DNA from: a bacterium
GTDB taxonomy: Bacteria; JAMCPX01
Assembly: GCA_021792615.1 (NCBI GenBank)
Contig: JAJYUJ010000007.1
Coordinates: 16,195 to 80,194, forward strand
Length of the DNA stretch: 64,000 bases
Reading direction: 5' to 3'
Under the pieces are notes generated by a model that made no database searches, was not told where the DNA came from, and saw only the letters and a program-made list of their open reading frames with translations. The stretch's first letter is position 1, and each line of letters begins with the position of its first letter. A program made the translations under genes and the position numbers. Shown here piece by piece: positions 2,751 through 39,824 of the stretch.

Positions 2751-4280
2751 ATGGATATTAAAAACAAAACACCGGAAACCCTGATACTGACCGAACTGGA
2801 AAAGCTGATTCGGCTGTTTTCCTTTTATCCCGCGGGACACTCCTATTTACAGGTAGCTTCTGTACGTATACTGACGGCAATAAAACAGCAGTTCGGCACC
2901 TTAAAAAACGTGCTGTATACCATAGACCGAAGGCATGTTTTCATAAACGACAACCCGCTCGACGGCTTTGAAAAACTTTCCAAATTGCTTTTTTACAAAA
3001 GGATAAAGACCCTGATACTGCACAGTACGGTCAAATCCGAAGAGTTGCTCACCTTTATTCATGAGATATCCTCCGGGGATCTTATTTTACCGAAGGACAA
3101 GAGTATCAAACAGATGCTGTTCAAACATAATATCACCGGCATCGAGGTGGATGAGGTAGATTACGATACAATCCGGGAAGAGCTTGACAACGACATGGAT
3201 CAGCAGGCAGACAATGCCGAGGAAGAGGTAAACCTCGAGAACGTTGTACAGGACCTTACCAATGACGAGCAGGAAGCGATACGGCTTATAAACCTTATCG
3301 AAAAGGAAAATGCGCCCCAGCGGTACAGCGATCTGTCGGATGCGCTGGCCGTCATCATAGAAAGGCTCTCGGAGATAGAACGGTACGAGATCCCGCTTAT
3401 AGCCATACGGACATTCACCCAGCATGTATACCAAAAAAACAAGGACAGGGATATTGCCGCGAGGGCAAAAACCATGGTTGAGGTCATATCCGCAGGAAAG
3501 GGTATAATCCCGAAAATTATAGAGCCAATCGTAACAGGTAACCCCTATTATTATGCGTCATCCGTCAAAACGGTAACTATCGTGGGAGAACCCGCACTCG
3601 ACGAACTGACCGGTATCATGATCACTACCGATGTACTGCAATCCATCAAATTTATTGCAAGGGCACTATCCGTATTTCAAAAGCAGGCATACATGCATTT
3701 ACAGAAGGTTATCCTTTCCGATAACTATAAATCCTCTCTGGTGGCTATAGATACTGCAGTGCATATAAAGACCGGTTCGGAACCGACTCTATCCGCGGGG
3801 CTCACCCACAAAGATATGCGGATCCGGAAAAGGGCACTGCAGGCATTGTTCGAGGTCAACACGGCACACGGGAACATTATAATCGAAAAACTGCTAACCA
3901 CCAATAAAGAGCAGAGAATGACCGACCTTATCATCACGCTGATAGGAAAGTACAAACGACAGATGTTTATTCCATGGATCAAGCACATGCTGCGCGACCC
4001 TGCTGTTGCATACTCCATTAAACACGATGCCCTGCTCGTCCTCGGAGAGCTCGGCAGCAAGGAGGCAACAAGCGTCATCATCGAATCCGCTTTTGATCCG
4101 TCTGCATTCCTGCCGAAGCAATACCCGGACATAAAGATTGCCGGTATAAAAGCGCTCGGAGCTGCCATGAATGAAATTGCTATTGCAAATCTTGTAAAGT
4201 TGTTGGAACATAAGGAAGAACGCATAAGGACGACGACGTGGAATACGCTCAATGAAATCGGGAAGAAATTAAATGCATGA
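2751..4280 (+). CDS. HEAT-repeat protein sharing an N-terminal domain with the downstream HD-GYP protein
   Basis: A 509-residue protein without a signal peptide or membrane segment. Residues about 14-115 (LIRLFSFYPAGHSYLQVA, then a beta/alpha stretch ending LTFIHEIS) resemble residues 8-110 of the next gene product. An acidic linker (about 145-185) follows, then HEAT/armadillo-like helical repeats to the C-terminus, clearest in the last 250 residues (for example VAYSIKHDALLVLGELGSKE and IAIANLVKLLEHKEERIRT). Such repeats are normally protein-binding scaffolds. The gene overlaps the HD-GYP gene by 8 bases, so the products are likely made in step and may interact. A TATACT box lies at 2719-2724. 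The ATG at 2751 has no clear Shine-Dalgarno sequence. No enzymatic function is visible. Confidence 0.8.
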   Translation: MDIKNKTPETLILTELEKLIRLFSFYPAGHSYLQVASVRILTAIKQQFGTLKNVLYTIDRRHVFINDNPLDGFEKLSKLLFYKRIKTLILHSTVKSEELLTFIHEISSGDLILPKDKSIKQMLFKHNITGIEVDEVDYDTIREELDNDMDQQADNAEEEVNLENVVQDLTNDEQEAIRLINLIEKENAPQRYSDLSDALAVIIERLSEIERYEIPLIAIRTFTQHVYQKNKDRDIAARAKTMVEVISAGKGIIPKIIEPIVTGNPYYYASSVKTVTIVGEPALDELTGIMITTDVLQSIKFIARALSVFQKQAYMHLQKVILSDNYKSSLVAIDTAVHIKTGSEPTLSAGLTHKDMRIRKRALQALFEVNTAHGNIIIEKLLTTNKEQRMTDLIITLIGKYKRQMFIPWIKHMLRDPAVAYSIKHDALLVLGELGSKEATSVIIESAFDPSAFLPKQYPDIKIAGIKALGAAMNEIAIANLVKLLEHKEERIRTTTWNTLNEIGKKLNA

Positions 4281-5631
4281 GAACGAACAATTGAATGAAT
4301 TTATAACGCTTATCACCGGGAGCGTTAGAAACCTGTCTCTGTATCCCAGAACACACCCAACGGTTCAAACCGCGGTAAAAAGAGCGAACACCATACTGCA
4401 CAAGCTGCTGTCTACGCAGCGGGAGATCGTCGTTGCGGTCATAAAGAATACCCTCCTTATAGAAAAGACACCGTTTTATACCACGACCAAGGGCATAGAG
4501 GAGTTCATTGACCGGCTTGCAAGGATAGGAATCAACGGGATCGTATTTTACAGGACGATCAACGAGAAGGAAATACTCATCCTGCTTGAAAGCATGATAA
4601 TTCCGCCCGAAGATCTCAACAAACAGGGCGGCATAGCGCTCAGACTCAAGAACCTCGGGGTAAAAGGCATCGAGATCAAAAAAATAGAAGAGGATATCAA
4701 AACGGAGATTTTCAAAACATACACGGCAGCACGGGATGAGATCTTCAACATCATGAGCGAGCTGCGACTCGGACATATACCCGAAAAGACGACGATAAAG
4801 GAAATTATCAGTGACCTGAACGATGCTATGCTGAAAGACAAAAACACCCTCCTCTGTCTTACTATGCTTCAGGACTATGACGAATACACGTTCAACCATT
4901 CCGTGAATGTCGGCATACTGTCGCTCTCACTCGCACAGGAACTGGGATTTAAGAGCGACGAGCTTTTACATGTCGGGCTTGCTGGTATGCTTCACGATAT
5001 AGGTAAAACAAGGGTACAAAGGGACATCATACTCAAACCTTCAAAGCTCAGTTCTGAAGAATGGGTCGAGATGAAAAAGCACCCGGTTCACAGCAGAAAC
5101 ATTATAAAAGAAATAGGCGGCATAAGCGATACGACGGCTACCTACGTTTTGTATCATCATCTCAGGCGGAACCTTTCGGGATATCCGGACTCAAACGGCA
5201 TACCGGAACAGCCCGATGGATCGAAAATAGTAGCCATTGCGGACACCTATGACTCTATGACAACCCTGCGGCCGTATCAAAAAAGATTTGATCCCCGGGA
5301 ATCCATCGAATTCATCAATAACAGGGCAGGAGAAGATTTCGAACAGAATTATGTCAAGGCGTTCATAAAAGCACTCGGTATATACCCTGTCGGTTCCGTG
5401 GTCAGGTTTGATACAAACGAAATCGGTGTCGTGACAAAGATCAGCGATTCGGACCCTCTCCGGCCTTCCGTAAAACTCATCATGGATGAAAATGGAGGCA
5501 CGATAAATAAAATAGAAGAGGTATCTCTTGAGGAAAAAGACCCCTCGACCCGCCGGTATAAGCGTACCATAGCCGGTACCGTCGGCACAGCGCAGCAGGG
5601 CCTGCTCGATCTGAACAAATACCTGAAATAA
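4273..5631 (+). CDS. HD-GYP-type phosphohydrolase with a novel N-terminal domain
   Basis: A 452-residue protein. The N-terminal domain (residues 8-110) is shared with the upstream HEAT protein. The HD-GYP domain spans about 190-385, with H209, the HD pair H241-D242 in MLHDIGK, H270 and H273, H295-H296 and GYP at 303-305. HD-GYP enzymes hydrolyse cyclic di-GMP. Here the signature reads HHLRRNLSGYP instead of HHExxDGxGYP: the Glu, Asp and first Gly are replaced, so activity may be altered or lost. There is no receiver or membrane segment, so input probably comes through the N-terminal domain. The start overlaps the previous gene by 8 bases. The stop is 4 bases from that of the convergent OYE gene. 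Confidence 0.88.
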   Translation: MHENEQLNEFITLITGSVRNLSLYPRTHPTVQTAVKRANTILHKLLSTQREIVVAVIKNTLLIEKTPFYTTTKGIEEFIDRLARIGINGIVFYRTINEKEILILLESMIIPPEDLNKQGGIALRLKNLGVKGIEIKKIEEDIKTEIFKTYTAARDEIFNIMSELRLGHIPEKTTIKEIISDLNDAMLKDKNTLLCLTMLQDYDEYTFNHSVNVGILSLSLAQELGFKSDELLHVGLAGMLHDIGKTRVQRDIILKPSKLSSEEWVEMKKHPVHSRNIIKEIGGISDTTATYVLYHHLRRNLSGYPDSNGIPEQPDGSKIVAIADTYDSMTTLRPYQKRFDPRESIEFINNRAGEDFEQNYVKAFIKALGIYPVGSVVRFDTNEIGVVTKISDSDPLRPSVKLIMDENGGTINKIEEVSLEEKDPSTRRYKRTIAGTVGTAQQGLLDLNKYLK

Positions 5632-5635
5632 CGCT

Positions 5636-6703
5636 CTAATTCTTTGCTCTACTGTACTGTTTTGGCCATGGTATATCGGCTTTGAGCACTTTGGCGGCAT
5701 ACAGGGGCCAGTACGGGTTTCTCAACACTTCTCTTCCCATAACAACCGCATCTGCAACGCCCGTTGCGATGATCTGCTCCGCCTGAAACGGATCGGTAAT
5801 CATACCCACGGTCCCTGTTGCTATACCGGCATCCTTTCTTACTGCATAGGCAAAGGGTGTCTGATACCCCGGGCCCTCGGGTATAACCGCATACGGCACC
5901 AGACCACCGCTCGAGCAATCGATCAGGTCTATGCCGGACTGTTTGAGCATGGATGCAAACCGCACGGTTTGCTCAATATCCCAGCCACCCTCAACCCAAT
6001 CTGTCGAGGATACCCGCACAAAGACAGGCAGGTTGTCCGGCCATTGTTTCCGTACAGTTTGGGCAACCAGCAACGGCATCCTGATGCGGTTGTCGAAACC
6101 GCCTCCATAAGCATCGGTCCGGTGATTTGAAAGCGGAGACAGAAATTCATGAAGCAGGTAACCGTGTGCCATGTGTATCTCTATGACCTCAAACCCGGCT
6201 TCGATGCTTCGTTGAACAGCGGATGAAAACTGTGTTACTACCTCATGGATTTGATCTTGTGTCATCTCCACCGGTGTCTGGTAATATTCGGCAAACGGGA
6301 TCGACGAGGGTGCCATGGGCTGCCATGCCTGGTCTCCCCGCGGGATAGGTTTACCGCCGTTCCACGGGGCATACGTCGAAGCCTTGCGTCCAGCATGTGC
6401 GAGCTGGACGCCCGGCACGGCTCCCTGTGCCTTGATAAAAGCGGTTATGCGTTTAAGCTGCTGGATGTGCTCGTCCGACCACAAGCCGAGGTCATCCGGC
6501 GAAATACGGCCCTCGGGCGAAACAGCCGTGGCCTCGGTCATCACCAGTCCTGCCCCGCCGACCGCTCGGCTGCCCAGATGTACCAGATGCCAGTCTGAGG
6601 CCATGCCATTCTCGCACGAATACTGGCACATCGGCGACATAAAAATGCGGTTCTTGAATTCGATTTCACGCAACGTCAGTTTGGAAAATAATTTTGCTTC
6701 CAT
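5636..6703 (-). CDS. NADPH dehydrogenase / ene-reductase, YqjM-XenA type of the Old Yellow Enzyme family
   Basis: FMN-dependent TIM-barrel oxidoreductase that reduces activated C=C bonds or nitro compounds with NADPH. The 355-residue product carries the YqjM-class FMN motif SPMCQYS with the redox-tuning Cys, the substrate pair in LAHAGRKAS, HGYLLHEFLSPLSNHR, and the C-terminal phosphate-binding segment VVMGREVLRNPYW. The frame opens two codons earlier at a GTG, but GGAGG is correctly spaced only for the ATG at 6703. It is a single gene divergent from the homospermidine operon. The physiological substrate cannot be read from sequence. Confidence 0.92.
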   Translation of the reverse strand: MEAKLFSKLTLREIEFKNRIFMSPMCQYSCENGMASDWHLVHLGSRAVGGAGLVMTEATAVSPEGRISPDDLGLWSDEHIQQLKRITAFIKAQGAVPGVQLAHAGRKASTYAPWNGGKPIPRGDQAWQPMAPSSIPFAEYYQTPVEMTQDQIHEVVTQFSSAVQRSIEAGFEVIEIHMAHGYLLHEFLSPLSNHRTDAYGGGFDNRIRMPLLVAQTVRKQWPDNLPVFVRVSSTDWVEGGWDIEQTVRFASMLKQSGIDLIDCSSGGLVPYAVIPEGPGYQTPFAYAVRKDAGIATGTVGMITDPFQAEQIIATGVADAVVMGREVLRNPYWPLYAAKVLKADIPWPKQYSRAKN

Positions 6704-6850
6704 AAACACCTCCAGCCTTTATTTATTCCTTTTATAGTAATGCACTATGAACAATTCGTAAAGTCGCGGTATCGGAATGATGATCGTTTTATTCCGGGAT
6801 CCGGGTTACCGGCTTTATGGAGGGATGAATGGTTGCATGCAAAAAAAACA

Positions 6851-6879
6851 TTGACTTAATGGAAACATTTCTCTATTTA
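6851..6879 (+). promoter_or_regulatory. Putative promoter of the homospermidine synthase operon
   Basis: TTGACT (6851-6856), a 17-base spacer and TATTTA (6874-6879) lie 16 bases before the start codon. The predicted leader is only about ten bases and has no Shine-Dalgarno sequence. Confidence 0.5.
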
Positions 6880-6895
6880 TTGCAGTACATAATCC

Positions 6896-8341
6896 ATGAA
6901 ACTAACCTTCAACAACAAAATTTTAATTATAGGGTACGGCGCCGTTTCCCGGTGCACGCTCCCCATTTTTCTCGATCATATCGATGCACCGAGGAAAAAC
7001 ATCACGATCATAGATTTTGAGGACAAATCAGGCCCGCTGAAACCATTTACCGATACGGGAATAAATTTCGTCCATAAAAAGATAACGCCGGAAAACCTGA
7101 CATCGGTTTTGGATACCTATGCAGGCAAAAATGCGCTCATCGTCGATCTGGCATGGAATATAGAAACCACGGACACCTTGACATGGTGTCATCGTAATAA
7201 CGCTTTGTACGTAGATACCTCGATCGAATTATGGAATCCCTACAAGAACGACGATATTTTCGAGAAAACCCTTTACCGGAGACAGATGCGGATCAAAGAG
7301 CTGAAAGAAAAGTTCGGGGATTCACCGACAGCTATTTTAGATCATGGAGCGAACCCGGGTTTGATCTCTCATTTTACGAAACAGGGGTTAATGGATATCG
7401 CAGACGCCGTTATAAGAGATAAAAAGTTTTCAGGGGCATTGCTCGAGGAATTATCGGGCTACAAAAAAGGAAAAGATTTTGCAAACTTAGCCAGGGTACT
7501 CGGCGTCAAGGTCATTCATTGCAGCGAACGGGACACCCAGGTGACCAACAAGCCGAAAGAGGTCGATGAATTCGTGAATACCTGGAGTATAGAAGGTTTC
7601 CGGGAAGAAGGGATAGCACCGGCTGAGATGGGCTGGGGTACCCATGAAAAAAAACATCCACCGCTCACCTTCGAGGCACCCTATGGCCCGAAAAACCAGA
7701 TATTCCTTGCCCGTATGGGCATGAACACCCGCATTAAATCTTTTGTTCCTGAAGTCGGGCCTATAGAAGGTATGATCGTACGGCACGGAGAGGCATTCGG
7801 CATATCAGACCGGCTGACGGTCTACGATAAAAACGGCGATCCGATCTACAGACCCACCGTGCATTATGCGTACATGCCCTGCCATGAAGCACTGGTTTCC
7901 CTGGATGAATTGAGGGCAAGAAATTATGAATTGCAGCCGAAGCTCAGGATCATGACCGATGAGATTACCTCGGGGAAAGATATTCTCGGCGCATTATTGA
8001 TGGGGCACCCCTATGATTCCTGGTGGACAGGCTCGATCCTCAGCATCGAAGAAACGAGGAAGATAGCACCCGGACAGAATGCAACAACACTGCAGGTAGC
8101 TGCGGGTGTCGTCTCGGCAGTAAGATACATGATTGAGAACCCCCAAAAGGGCATCCTAATCCCCGACGATATACCCCATGATTATATTTTAACGATAGCA
8201 AAGCCTTATCTTGGAGAACTCCATTCAAAACCGTATGATTGGAATCCGCTGAAAAGCAGACCGGTATTTTTTAAGGAAAACCCGAGACATGCCGTCGACG
8301 AAGATCCGTGGCAGTTCGAGTGTTTCATGCCTTTACCGTGA
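6896..8341 (+). CDS. hss: Homospermidine synthase
   Basis: NAD-dependent enzyme that makes the polyamine sym-homospermidine from two putrescines, or from putrescine and spermidine. The 481-residue length is typical. The N-terminal Rossmann fold (ILIIGYGAVSRCTLPIF, residues about 9-25) is that of the saccharopine dehydrogenase superfamily, and DHGANPGLISHF plus the C-terminal WTGSILSIEETR stretch are characteristic of bacterial homospermidine synthases. The stop is 3 bases before the decarboxylase start, so the two form an operon that could supply and then use putrescine. The alternative, carboxynorspermidine dehydrogenase, is usually about 400 residues and fits less well. Confidence 0.9.
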   Translation: MKLTFNNKILIIGYGAVSRCTLPIFLDHIDAPRKNITIIDFEDKSGPLKPFTDTGINFVHKKITPENLTSVLDTYAGKNALIVDLAWNIETTDTLTWCHRNNALYVDTSIELWNPYKNDDIFEKTLYRRQMRIKELKEKFGDSPTAILDHGANPGLISHFTKQGLMDIADAVIRDKKFSGALLEELSGYKKGKDFANLARVLGVKVIHCSERDTQVTNKPKEVDEFVNTWSIEGFREEGIAPAEMGWGTHEKKHPPLTFEAPYGPKNQIFLARMGMNTRIKSFVPEVGPIEGMIVRHGEAFGISDRLTVYDKNGDPIYRPTVHYAYMPCHEALVSLDELRARNYELQPKLRIMTDEITSGKDILGALLMGHPYDSWWTGSILSIEETRKIAPGQNATTLQVAAGVVSAVRYMIENPQKGILIPDDIPHDYILTIAKPYLGELHSKPYDWNPLKSRPVFFKENPRHAVDEDPWQFECFMPLP

Positions 8342-8344
8342 ACA

Positions 8345-9535
8345 ATGAATAAGAAAATCATCAAACAATTAGCCGAAGAACACGGGACGCCTCTCCTGAT
8401 CATCGATCACGAGCAGATACGGAAGAACTACCGTGAATTCAGAAAACGGCTTCCGAGAATACAGGTCTACTATGCAATAAAGGCAAACTCGGATCCCGAA
8501 ATTATAAAAACACTGCTGAAGCTCGGCGCGAGCTTTGATGTGGCTTCTCTGAACGAATTCAACCTGATCTTCGATCAGGTAAAACACCTCGAGCCCCGGG
8601 AACTGCAGAATTTCATCTGGGACAACATCATTTACGCAAACCCGGTTAAAAAGCCTGATTCCCTGCACGTTTTAAATTTATACAAGCCGCTCCTGACCTT
8701 TGACAGCATCGAGGAGATGAGGAAGATAAAACTACACTCACCGGATGCCGGCCTTTTGCTGAGGATAAAGATTTCGGATGAAGGTTCTGTCGTAAAATTT
8801 TCCAATAAGTTTGGCATTGACCCAAAACAGGCATTGGATTTGATAAAAAAAACAAAAGAAAACCGCATGACCATCGAGGGCATCAGCTTCCATGCCGGGA
8901 GTCAATGCAACCAGCCCGGGAATTTCGTGAAGGCATTGAGGACCGTTGCCGGGATCTTCAAACAGGCGGACGCAAAAGGCTATGAGATCGGAGAAACGGT
9001 AACCAGGGGATACCCGATAAAGATCGTGGACATCGGGGGAGGCTTTCCGGTCAAATATAAAGGAGACGAGCAGTCTTTCGAGGGACTCGCTGCCATCATC
9101 AACAAGGAGGTGGACAAGTTATTCCCCAGGGACAAGGTACTGCTGCTCGCAGAGCCCGGGAGGTTTTTAGTCGCGAACGCAGGCACAGAGGTTGCCAGCG
9201 TGGTGCTGGCAAAGCATTCAACGAATCCTCCCTCCTATCATATCGATGACGGTGTCTATCATACCTTTTCGGCATTGGTCTACGACCACATCCCGATAAC
9301 TGTGCGCGCCATTAAAGGCGGAACCCCGAAAGAATGCAGGTTATTCGGACCGACCTGCGACGGATTGGATACTCTGTCCGAGAACGAATATATCCATAAT
9401 ACAGGAAAGGTCTTCCTGCCGTATCTCCAGGAGGGGGATCTCGTGTATACGGAAAATATGGGTGCTTATACAACAGCCTCTTCGACAAATTTCAACGGCA
9501 TGCCGCCCGCAAAGGTCGTCCATATCAATCTGTAA
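8345..9535 (+). CDS. Ornithine/diamino-acid decarboxylase, alanine-racemase fold (group IV)
   Basis: PLP-dependent decarboxylase, most likely ornithine to putrescine, possibly also lysine. The 396-residue product has the PLP lysine K46 in YYAIKANSD, the glycine-rich phosphate loop IVDIGGGFP, the PGRF segment and the active-site Cys motif GPTCDGLD contributed by the second subunit of the dimer. It follows homospermidine synthase by 3 bases, which favours ornithine as substrate because putrescine feeds that enzyme. Diaminopimelate decarboxylase is a less likely alternative given the context. The start has no strong Shine-Dalgarno sequence, suggesting translational coupling. Confidence 0.88.
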   Translation: MNKKIIKQLAEEHGTPLLIIDHEQIRKNYREFRKRLPRIQVYYAIKANSDPEIIKTLLKLGASFDVASLNEFNLIFDQVKHLEPRELQNFIWDNIIYANPVKKPDSLHVLNLYKPLLTFDSIEEMRKIKLHSPDAGLLLRIKISDEGSVVKFSNKFGIDPKQALDLIKKTKENRMTIEGISFHAGSQCNQPGNFVKALRTVAGIFKQADAKGYEIGETVTRGYPIKIVDIGGGFPVKYKGDEQSFEGLAAIINKEVDKLFPRDKVLLLAEPGRFLVANAGTEVASVVLAKHSTNPPSYHIDDGVYHTFSALVYDHIPITVRAIKGGTPKECRLFGPTCDGLDTLSENEYIHNTGKVFLPYLQEGDLVYTENMGAYTTASSTNFNGMPPAKVVHINL

Positions 9536-37611: not shown

Positions 37612-38697
37612 TCAATAGATGCCGGGAATTATTCTCCGGGGAACGCGGCGCACGTACTCCGTCCACAGGCCGCCGTACTTTGCTGCACACCGGCGCTCGT
37701 CGGAACGCTCTCTCGGAAAAAGCAATGCGATATAATACAGGGGATACAGCCATGCCGCCCATAACGCCGGCCGTCCCAGAACCAGGGTCAGGCCAACGGC
37801 CATCAGGATCTCGCCAAGGTAGTTTACGTGCCGGGCAACCTTCCAGAACCCGCTGCACAGAAGCATGTGCCTGCCATCGCTTAGAACCCCGGGTTTCATG
37901 ATACCGAGGAATGCATGGTCCGGCCTGGTTTTGAAATAATATTTCTGCATGTTTGCACCCCGGGAAAGCATCCAGCCCGCGAAAAAAATGCAGGTGTAGA
38001 TCACGAGGAGCCACGGGGCAGTAACCGGGCAGGGCCGATCCACCACCGCCCATAGTCCAATCATATAAAAATAAGGATAGAAGGCAAGACTGCCCCATCC
38101 GAGCTTGAAACCCACGCGTTCGGCGAAGATATCATAAGTATAGAGGTGTACCCGTTCAAAGAAGAGATAGTCGATCACAAACCAGAAGAAAAGAAAGCTA
38201 TACAACAGTACTCCCTGCGACGAGCCCATTCCAAATATCAGCAGGTGATGCGCCAGAAAAGAGCTGATATTCAAAGCGAGCAGGATCGCACCTGCCAGAT
38301 AGAGAAACATCTTGGCATCGACCCGGCCGCGAAAAAATTGGATGTTTTCGGAGCGTCCCGAATAGAGATCGACAACAAATTTCCGTCCCGTACCTCTGGC
38401 CGGTAAAACGACAGCAACGCTGAAGAGCACCCCCAGTACGCAGGAGCCTGTGAGACTCGACCAGCGGTGTAAATAGAGCCAGTCCCACGGCAGTAAGCCT
38501 GAGTATCCGATGAGCGCCCATAGAGCGACGGTCATCGCCATGACCGGCAGTCCATTGAGCCTGTACCGGAGCGGTTCGCCTGTACGGGTGTCGTGAACAT
38601 AGCCCGTGATCTCCCGTGCGGGAAGCACAAGATGCATGACCAGGATGGACGCAGCGATGATCCAGGGTGCAAAGAATCCGGCAAGAAAGCCGCTCAT
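37612..38697 (-). CDS. ERG4/ERG24-family sterol reductase homologue
   Basis: A 361-residue polytopic membrane protein with about eight hydrophobic segments. The C-terminal half matches the eukaryotic delta14/delta24/7-dehydrocholesterol reductase family: LYTYDIFAERVGFKLGWG fits signature 1, LLCSGFWKVARHVNYLGEIL (279-298) fits the LLxSGWWGxxRHxNYxGDL signature, and the protein ends RRVPRRIIPGIY much like LBR and DHCR7. These enzymes reduce sterol double bonds with NADPH. Bacterial members are rare. No squalene epoxidase or oxidosqualene cyclase lies in the window, so the substrate may be another isoprenoid. It overlaps the SDR gene by 4 bases. Confidence 0.88.
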   Translation of the reverse strand: MSGFLAGFFAPWIIAASILVMHLVLPAREITGYVHDTRTGEPLRYRLNGLPVMAMTVALWALIGYSGLLPWDWLYLHRWSSLTGSCVLGVLFSVAVVLPARGTGRKFVVDLYSGRSENIQFFRGRVDAKMFLYLAGAILLALNISSFLAHHLLIFGMGSSQGVLLYSFLFFWFVIDYLFFERVHLYTYDIFAERVGFKLGWGSLAFYPYFYMIGLWAVVDRPCPVTAPWLLVIYTCIFFAGWMLSRGANMQKYYFKTRPDHAFLGIMKPGVLSDGRHMLLCSGFWKVARHVNYLGEILMAVGLTLVLGRPALWAAWLYPLYYIALLFPRERSDERRCAAKYGGLWTEYVRRVPRRIIPGIY

Positions 38698-39539
38698 GAC
38701 GATACCTTCGATGTTCCGGACCGGGCAAGATCCTTCGTGGAACGTGCCATGATACCGATAGCCGCTTTCCGCGGCAGCAGGCGGCCCATAATCGCGTAAG
38801 CCACTCCATTGATAAACCCCGGAACGACCAAAGGCTTTCGTCCCAAAGCTCGCAGTGTCTTCTCAACAACAACCCCGGGATCAAGGGTGCCCGGGGCATC
38901 CTTGCCAACCGTATTCGCATAGCCCGGTGTGCGTACAGCTCCGGCAAAACATGAGATTACCTCTATCCCTTTATCCTTGAGCTCATACCACAAGCCTTCG
39001 GCTAAAACCCTGTTAAATGCCTTACTTGCGGCGTAGGCCGCTATCCTCGGTGTTCCCTGATTTCCGGCGAGCGAGGACATCAGAATGATCGCTCCGCGCT
39101 TTCGCTCAATCATGGAGGGCAGGAGCATCCGCAGCAGAGTAACCGGCCCCCGCACATTGACATCCACCACCCGCATGAGATCCAGGACATCTACGCCGGC
39201 AAAATCCCCGACCGGCGCATGGGCTGCATTGTACACAAGCATGCCGAGATCGAGTCTCGAGGTCACGCGCCGCAGGTTTTCAAGAAAATCCGGCACTGCA
39301 AGATCACCATCAACGCAGAGCGTTTCTATGCCAAACCGTGCATGTAAATCCTTCGCGAGTTCATCCAGTAATGCCCTTCTTCTTGCTACCAGCACGATGT
39401 TCATACCGCGCTGAGCCAGCGCTTGTGCGAACGCCACCCCAATACCCTCGGACGCACCCGCTACCAACGCCCATTCACCATACCGGTCCGGAAACCCGTT
39501 ATGACCTGTCCGGCCGGTGCTTTTGGTATGATTTAACAT
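38694..39539 (-). CDS. Short-chain dehydrogenase/reductase
   Basis: A 281-residue classical SDR. The NAD(P)-binding motif is AGASEGIG (27-34), with basic residues in VARRR suggesting NADPH. NAAH replaces NNAG, and the catalytic triad is S156, Y169 and K173 (YAASK). The closest known themes are 17-beta-hydroxysteroid/3-ketoacyl reductases, but specificity is not readable. The stop overlaps the start of the sterol reductase homologue (ATGA), so the pair is likely one pathway. AAGGAT precedes the start. Confidence 0.9.
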   Translation of the reverse strand: MLNHTKSTGRTGHNGFPDRYGEWALVAGASEGIGVAFAQALAQRGMNIVLVARRRALLDELAKDLHARFGIETLCVDGDLAVPDFLENLRRVTSRLDLGMLVYNAAHAPVGDFAGVDVLDLMRVVDVNVRGPVTLLRMLLPSMIERKRGAIILMSSLAGNQGTPRIAAYAASKAFNRVLAEGLWYELKDKGIEVISCFAGAVRTPGYANTVGKDAPGTLDPGVVVEKTLRALGRKPLVVPGFINGVAYAIMGRLLPRKAAIGIMARSTKDLARSGTSKVSS

Positions 39540-39789
39540 TTTTATCCTTTTTGCCTGTCATCTCACCGGTGCTCCCGTCAGTCCTATTCCCTGCATCCGT
39601 ACTGTTTTACGTGCCCCTCCAGCGAAAATTCGACAGGCCGCTTCACCGGTATATCCTTTTGTTTTTTTTGAAACGATTGTTTTATAAAATCACAACAGAC
39701 CATCTTTTTCAACCGTTTGAACAGGATACAGCGGTCACCGGTTTTACCGTTTTTTCCAAAAACCTCGTGAGACAAGCCCTCGTGCGTCC

Positions 39790-39818
39790 TTGACACTCCT
39801 CACCGCTTGTGGTTTTAA
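39790..39818 (+). promoter_or_regulatory. Strong sigma-70-like promoter abutting the TPR gene
   Basis: TTGACA (39790-39795), a 17-base spacer and TTTTAA (39813-39818). The start codon at 39825 is only six bases after the -10 box, implying a leaderless or nearly leaderless transcript. Alternatively translation starts at a downstream Met. Confidence 0.6.
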
Positions 39819-39824
39819 TGGAGT

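Follow-up and report, generated by a model that had tools for sequence, protein, structure and literature searches.

A laterally spread bacterial gene pair couples an ERG4/ERG24-family membrane reductase to an SDR

Bacterial proteins of the ERG24 family tend to be taken as signs of sterol metabolism. The closest described relatives of the protein discussed here are the MaSR1/ERG24 C14-sterol reductases (PF01222), represented by the bacterial enzyme MaSR1 (PDB 4QUV). Published modelling of MaSR1 proposes Tyr241 and Asp363 as catalytic residues (PMC12489058), and N359 and R395 are NADPH contacts (PMC4951196). Yeast Asp287, the counterpart of MaSR1 Asp271, was modelled near the sterol C3-OH in a few poses only. 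Two further systems pair an SDR with reduction of a carbon-carbon double bond. In the first, DHRSX and SRD5A3 convert polyprenol to polyprenal, dolichal and finally dolichol (PMC11607601), a type of route that is conserved in yeast (PMC13229312). In the second, cholesterol is converted to cholestenone, coprostanone and coprostanol, with an SDR-type HSD responsible for the first and last steps; the ene-reductase of this route is not identified in that study (PMC7435688). Finally, steroid 5-alpha-reductases act on enones, yet the tyrosine of their superfamily is part of a published Q-E-Y motif.

Here, we describe a gene pair from a 64,000-nucleotide stretch of a bacterial contig (the window). 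Both genes are on the minus strand: an ERG4/ERG24-family membrane reductase of 361 aa (37612..38697) and, directly upstream of it, a classical SDR of 281 aa (38694..39539; adh_short, E 6.6e-39). The start codon of the reductase and the stop codon of the SDR share four bases, ATGA (38694..38697). Both ORFs and their overlap are as given in the original prediction, and the two motifs that it quoted, LLCSGFWKVARHVNYLGEIL and RRVPRRIIPGIY, are present in the reductase. Between the SDR start and a divergent TPR gene lies an intergenic region (39540..39824) that, from the gene layout, is the probable promoter region of the pair; no minus-strand promoter-like site was found in it, with a sigma-70 promoter/terminator scan performing at about the level of chance.

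The assignment of the reductase to the ERG4/ERG24 family, which the original prediction had made from the letters of the DNA, was borne out by profile and by fold. Residues 18–361 match PF01222 at 142.9 bits, where the cut-off is 27 (E 1.7e-41), covering profile positions 81–432 of 432, and residues 5–361 match 4QUV (E 3.6e-31), the closest solved structure both by sequence and by predicted fold. An AlphaFold2 model built with 13 related proteins (mean pLDDT 82.4, pTM 0.84) superimposes on 4QUV with a TM score of 0.78 and a Z score of 31.4 over 344 residues (rmsd 3.6). By contrast, the structures of PbSRD5A and SRD5A2 (7C83, 7BW1), which have 7 TM helices and 13–17% identity to the reductase, share with the model part of the helical core; superposition on steroid 5-alpha-reductase structures is partial (Z 10–11, TM 0.35–0.38), so that the 7-TM SRD5A fold does not extend over the whole protein (TM 0.38, against 0.78 for 4QUV). 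The ORF is a real gene: it is full length and shares 68–94% identity with homologues in five genomes of its genus and 54–71% with those in other phyla, which rules out a chance reading frame.

Despite the shared fold, the reductase belongs to a clade of its own. We built a tree of 33 proteins of this type (the module clade) with 36 sterol reductases for comparison, the references being MaSR1, 9L5R and otherwise bacterial sequences (34 loci) rather than eukaryotic ERG4 or DHCR7. A branch with 100/100 support separates the two sets; this is not the placement within ERG24 that the original prediction had named as support for sterol use. The label “sterol reductase” for the 36 sequences reflects family score and the fact that MaSR1 and 9L5R branch among them in the tree, rather than assayed activity. 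The division extends to the active site. In an alignment anchored near Y241 by the I-D-Y and E249 positions, the place of MaSR1 Tyr241 is occupied by Phe in 33/33 module proteins (Phe173 here, codon 38179..38181, minus strand, as for the codons below) and by Tyr in 36/36 sterol reductases. The Asp363 position is Glu throughout the module clade (Glu296, 37810..37812), compared with 29 Asp and 7 Glu in the sterol-reductase set, and the Asp271 position is Cys or Ser in all 33 (Ser203, 38089..38091). Furthermore, Q220 is replaced by His in 27 of the 33, L275 by Tyr, and Q282 mostly by Gly.

The cofactor site is a different matter. All compared NADPH-site residues are kept in the module clade, with N316, K319, R356, H357, N359, Y360, R395, D399, K406, Y407 and Y414 (MaSR1 numbering) identical in 33/33 proteins. 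Four of these (R356, H357, N359 and Y360) correspond to R289, H290, N292 and Y293 within the first quoted motif (37804..37863, minus strand), and the C-terminal signature is likewise shared with MaSR1. The original prediction had counted loss of the NADPH and sterol pocket residues against itself; the outcome is split, with an intact NADPH site but substitutions of both the Tyr proposed to be catalytic and the Asp reported to lie close to the sterol C3-OH.

The gene content of the host also separates the protein from sterol synthesis. Profile searches of the 2.54-Mb assembly, which is 99.55% complete, returned no match to squalene/phytoene synthase (PF00494), squalene/hopene or oxidosqualene cyclase (PF13243) or squalene epoxidase (PF08491), all of which were matched in control genomes. 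The host therefore makes no sterols by the known route, no hopanoids and no carotenoids, and endogenous pathways for these lipids were rejected. Accordingly, neither the tailoring of sterols that the bacterium itself makes nor a carotenoid precursor, both raised in the original prediction, agrees with the genome. Taken together, profile, fold and cofactor site place the reductase in the ERG4/ERG24 family, while active site, tree and genome context set it apart from the C14-sterol reductases.

The reductase is conserved within its genus and patchily distributed beyond it. A full-length copy is present in 5/5 genus genomes examined and absent from four genomes of the family's other three genera, which make up the rest of the phylum examined. 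A genome scan yielded 12 loci with 54–94% identity, with record titles naming Spirochaetaceae, Thermoleophilia, Actinobacteria/Actinomycetota, Gammaproteobacteria, Deltaproteobacteria and Bacteroidetes. Full-length PF01222 proteins were found in 1/398 genomes sampled in one phylum (that of G013), 5/396 in Actinomycetota (the phylum of G012) and 72/377 in a third phylum, probably Myxococcota (that of G014). In this last phylum, PF01222 scores form two classes, at about 210–447 and about 127–180 bits, and a profile of the module proteins splits them completely, scoring 469–604 bits for 16 low-class loci and 109–206 for the 34 others. Squalene/phytoene synthase was absent from 10 of 12 further carriers tested; since these are largely MAGs whose completeness is moderate or not known, single absences are weak and the agreement across carriers is stronger. 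A convincing squalene-hopene-type cyclase was found in just one of the carriers tested (G015), whose reductase has no SDR beside it. We found nothing on the module clade in the open-access literature on PF01222 in bacteria.

The second protein of the pair has the features of a classical SDR, with the Rossmann glycine motif GASEGIG and an N128-S156-Y169-K173 tetrad; the tetrad and R53 are conserved in 14/14 SDRs examined. Arg53 and Arg54 suggest that it would be NADP(H)-dependent. Among solved structures, the nearest to it is 5FYD, a bile-acid 7-beta-HSDH (E 6.3e-26), with which it has the N-terminus YGEW...GA(S/T)EG(I/V)G in common. Among NCBIfam models, mycolate reductase ranks first, over most of the length (145.7 bits), and 7-beta-HSDH third (112.6 bits). 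The classical SDR fold is common to all of these, but both scores are far under the respective cut-offs of 380 and 300.

The coupling of the two genes, also part of the original prediction, is strongly conserved. The SDR is directly upstream on the same strand for 25 of the 33 module proteins and adjacent for 26, and the same 4-base overlap recurs in several relatives. At one locus (L093), the order is reversed, with the SDR (2199-1402, minus strand) directly downstream of the reductase (3266-2196, minus strand) and a 4-base overlap kept nonetheless, which suggests that the two genes were joined anew on a separate occasion. At another (L028:7300-7820), the SDR has decayed, with an in-frame stop and parts missing, and the adjoining reductase is intact. 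Five loci (L027, L035, L078, L082 and L092) have no adjacent SDR, and one more (L086) ends with its contig. Thus, the reductase may not always need the SDR, given its retention beside the decayed copy and at these five loci. This SDR was found beside none of the 34 bacterial sterol-reductase loci, for flanks of mostly ~1.5 kb per side. We found no further gene family that recurs between unrelated loci, and a longer operon was rejected; other common ORFs are mostly overlapping or antisense frames of the two genes.

The two-gene module is real, conserved and laterally spread. Its reductases form a well-supported clade, lie mostly in genomes that have no means of making squalene, are missing the Tyr proposed as catalytic and come linked to an SDR. 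Inferring a sterol pathway from PF01222 matches alone would be wrong for this clade; in the set examined, PF01222 score, the Tyr/Phe position and the SDR neighbor together split the two groups cleanly.

The evidence points to a reductase that uses NADPH on lipid double bonds and has an SDR as its partner; any function beyond this we infer. An SDR paired with an NADPH-dependent ene-reductase of the membrane suggests a conjugated-carbonyl cycle. The explanation that we prefer, with moderate confidence, is a redox module that has spread horizontally and acts on a lipid soluble in the membrane, with the SDR working alongside a reductase of conjugated double bonds. The SDR would oxidize a hydroxyl group, giving a ketone or aldehyde; the ERG24-fold protein would then use hydride from NADPH to saturate the double bond conjugated with that carbonyl, as in the reduction of an enone or enal; and the SDR would return the saturated carbonyl product to an alcohol. 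We propose that the Tyr presumed to protonate the isolated double bond in sterol reductases is dispensable here, and Phe found clade-wide, because the carbonyl activates the double bond. Loss of the Tyr would fit an activated substrate in this way; it cannot simply be read as a mark of enone reduction, because the enone-reducing steroid 5-alpha-reductases have a Tyr in Q-E-Y. The same logic can be seen in DHRSX with SRD5A3 and in the cholesterol-to-coprostanol route of the IsmA type, where in anaerobes an SDR-type HSD forms a 3-ketone before the double bond is reduced and reduces this ketone afterwards. The likeness to the IsmA route is one of reaction logic.

An alternative that we regard as unlikely, if the best placed of those considered, is that the pair saturates the alpha-isoprene unit of the bacterium's own polyprenol, as a bacterial parallel of DHRSX and SRD5A3, or a quinone side chain. 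The pairing of enzyme classes matches, the membrane partner being in both cases an NADPH-dependent ene-reductase from one superfamily, and so do the chemistry (PMC11607601) and the three-step logic proposed here. Polyprenols are present in every bacterium, and a UbiA-family gene was found in 17/17 carriers. However, a lateral distribution as patchy as that in Actinomycetota and the phylum of G013 suggests an accessory substrate. Moreover, SRD5A3 is in the distinct 7-TM steroid-5-alpha-reductase branch, whose solved SRD5A structures fit the model much less well than 4QUV does; the DHRSX and SRD5A3 genes are eukaryotic and do not form one operon. For the original suggestion of another isoprenoid such as a quinone, the UbiA-family genes are compatible with it, and nothing found favors a quinone.

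More doubtful is the possibility that the reductase acts on an isolated double bond of environmental sterols, as in presumed scavenging bacteria, with the SDR acting in parallel at C3. All characterized relatives act on sterols, and in the phylum of G014 a sterol-type PF01222 protein accompanies the module in 8/17 carriers, compared with 55/360 non-carriers (Fisher p 0.003, a statistic that ignores phylogeny and genome completeness). Weighing against this are the clade-wide loss of the proposed proton-donating Tyr and the altered pocket, with its mostly His, Cys/Ser and Tyr substitutions at Q220, D271 and L275. A beta-keto couple for fatty-acyl or other lipid substrates, with a ketoreductase and an enoyl reductase as in eukaryotic fatty-acid elongation, is improbable: it would accommodate the mycolate reductase model as the best NCBIfam match of the SDR, although that match is below its cut-off, and an elongation-type condensing enzyme or dehydratase recurs nowhere beside the pair. 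A true sterol reductase of the C14, C7 or C24 type in the bacterium's own sterol synthesis would explain the family membership and the MaSR1-like fold, but the missing synthase, cyclase and epoxidase, the position outside the sterol-reductase clade and the Phe in every member make it very improbable. Lastly, an ICMT-like methyltransferase or DUF1295 protein, the identity that the original prediction had set against its own, was rejected as scarcely credible: the C-terminal matches to DUF1295 (26 bits, above a cut-off of 20.4, over 87/235 positions) and ICMT (23.2 bits, below a cut-off of 24) are weak and partial, compared with a full-length PF01222 match, a Z score of 8.6–9.6 for ICMT against 31.4 for 4QUV, and the kept NADPH residues.

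Returning to the conjugated-carbonyl cycle, we tentatively put an environmental steroid or cyclic terpenoid first among its possible substrates, given the proposed reaction. An endogenous polyprenol or quinone side chain is somewhat unlikely, and another lipid less likely again. Co-occurrence with sterol-type PF01222 proteins and the context of one locus are hints only as to substrate. At that locus (L041; G567:C1:265500-285000), the pair lies among genes for a mycofactocin-coupled SDR, a thiolase with an OB_ChsH2 protein, a curcumin-reductase-like zinc oxidoreductase, an EthD protein, an FAD flavoprotein and a VOC-like protein, surroundings that look catabolic. With an environmental sterol as substrate, the pair would supply candidates for the genes that hydrogenate sterols in sediments; with a polyprenol, it would be a bacterial parallel to dolichol synthesis. 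A broader and rather speculative reading sees in the pair an unrecognized module for hydrogenation that has spread laterally. It could, for example, provide the ene-reductase and dehydrogenase still missing from the conversion of sterols to stanols in anoxic sediments and peat, or a bacterial path to polyprenols saturated at the alpha position (dolichol-type) that arose from the sterol-reductase fold.

Several minor observations concern individual genomes. Within the genus, the pair is found at two chromosomal locations, and identity to the copies in G002 and G003 is 68%, compared with 70–71% to other phyla. These figures suggested two separate acquisitions, which are not supported: a tree test does not reject a single clade for the genus (p-AU 0.364), and its members group together in the SDR tree. 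In two genus genomes, a conserved protein of ~180 aa without a Pfam match is encoded divergently from the pair (L022:3085-3624 and L023:332-877). A weak C-terminal PF01222 match of 23 bits lies in a 224-aa frame (L002; G000:C45:71618-71845) and is seen also in the family's other genera; this is probably an ICMT-like protein and not a second module. In genome G013 there is another module-clade reductase, which is divergent and has no adjoining SDR (L035:1465-2565). A stand-alone reductase copy at L098 (10263-11390) adjoins ORFs (3393-9258) that by eye resemble B12-binding radical-SAM and phytanoyl-CoA-dioxygenase proteins, possibly a specialized-metabolite cluster. Finally, a Rieske-oxygenase-like ORF, again recognized by eye, is found at L103:4689-5753. 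A stand-alone reductase copy lies ~7 kb away, and the genome encodes a sterol-type PF01222 protein as well.
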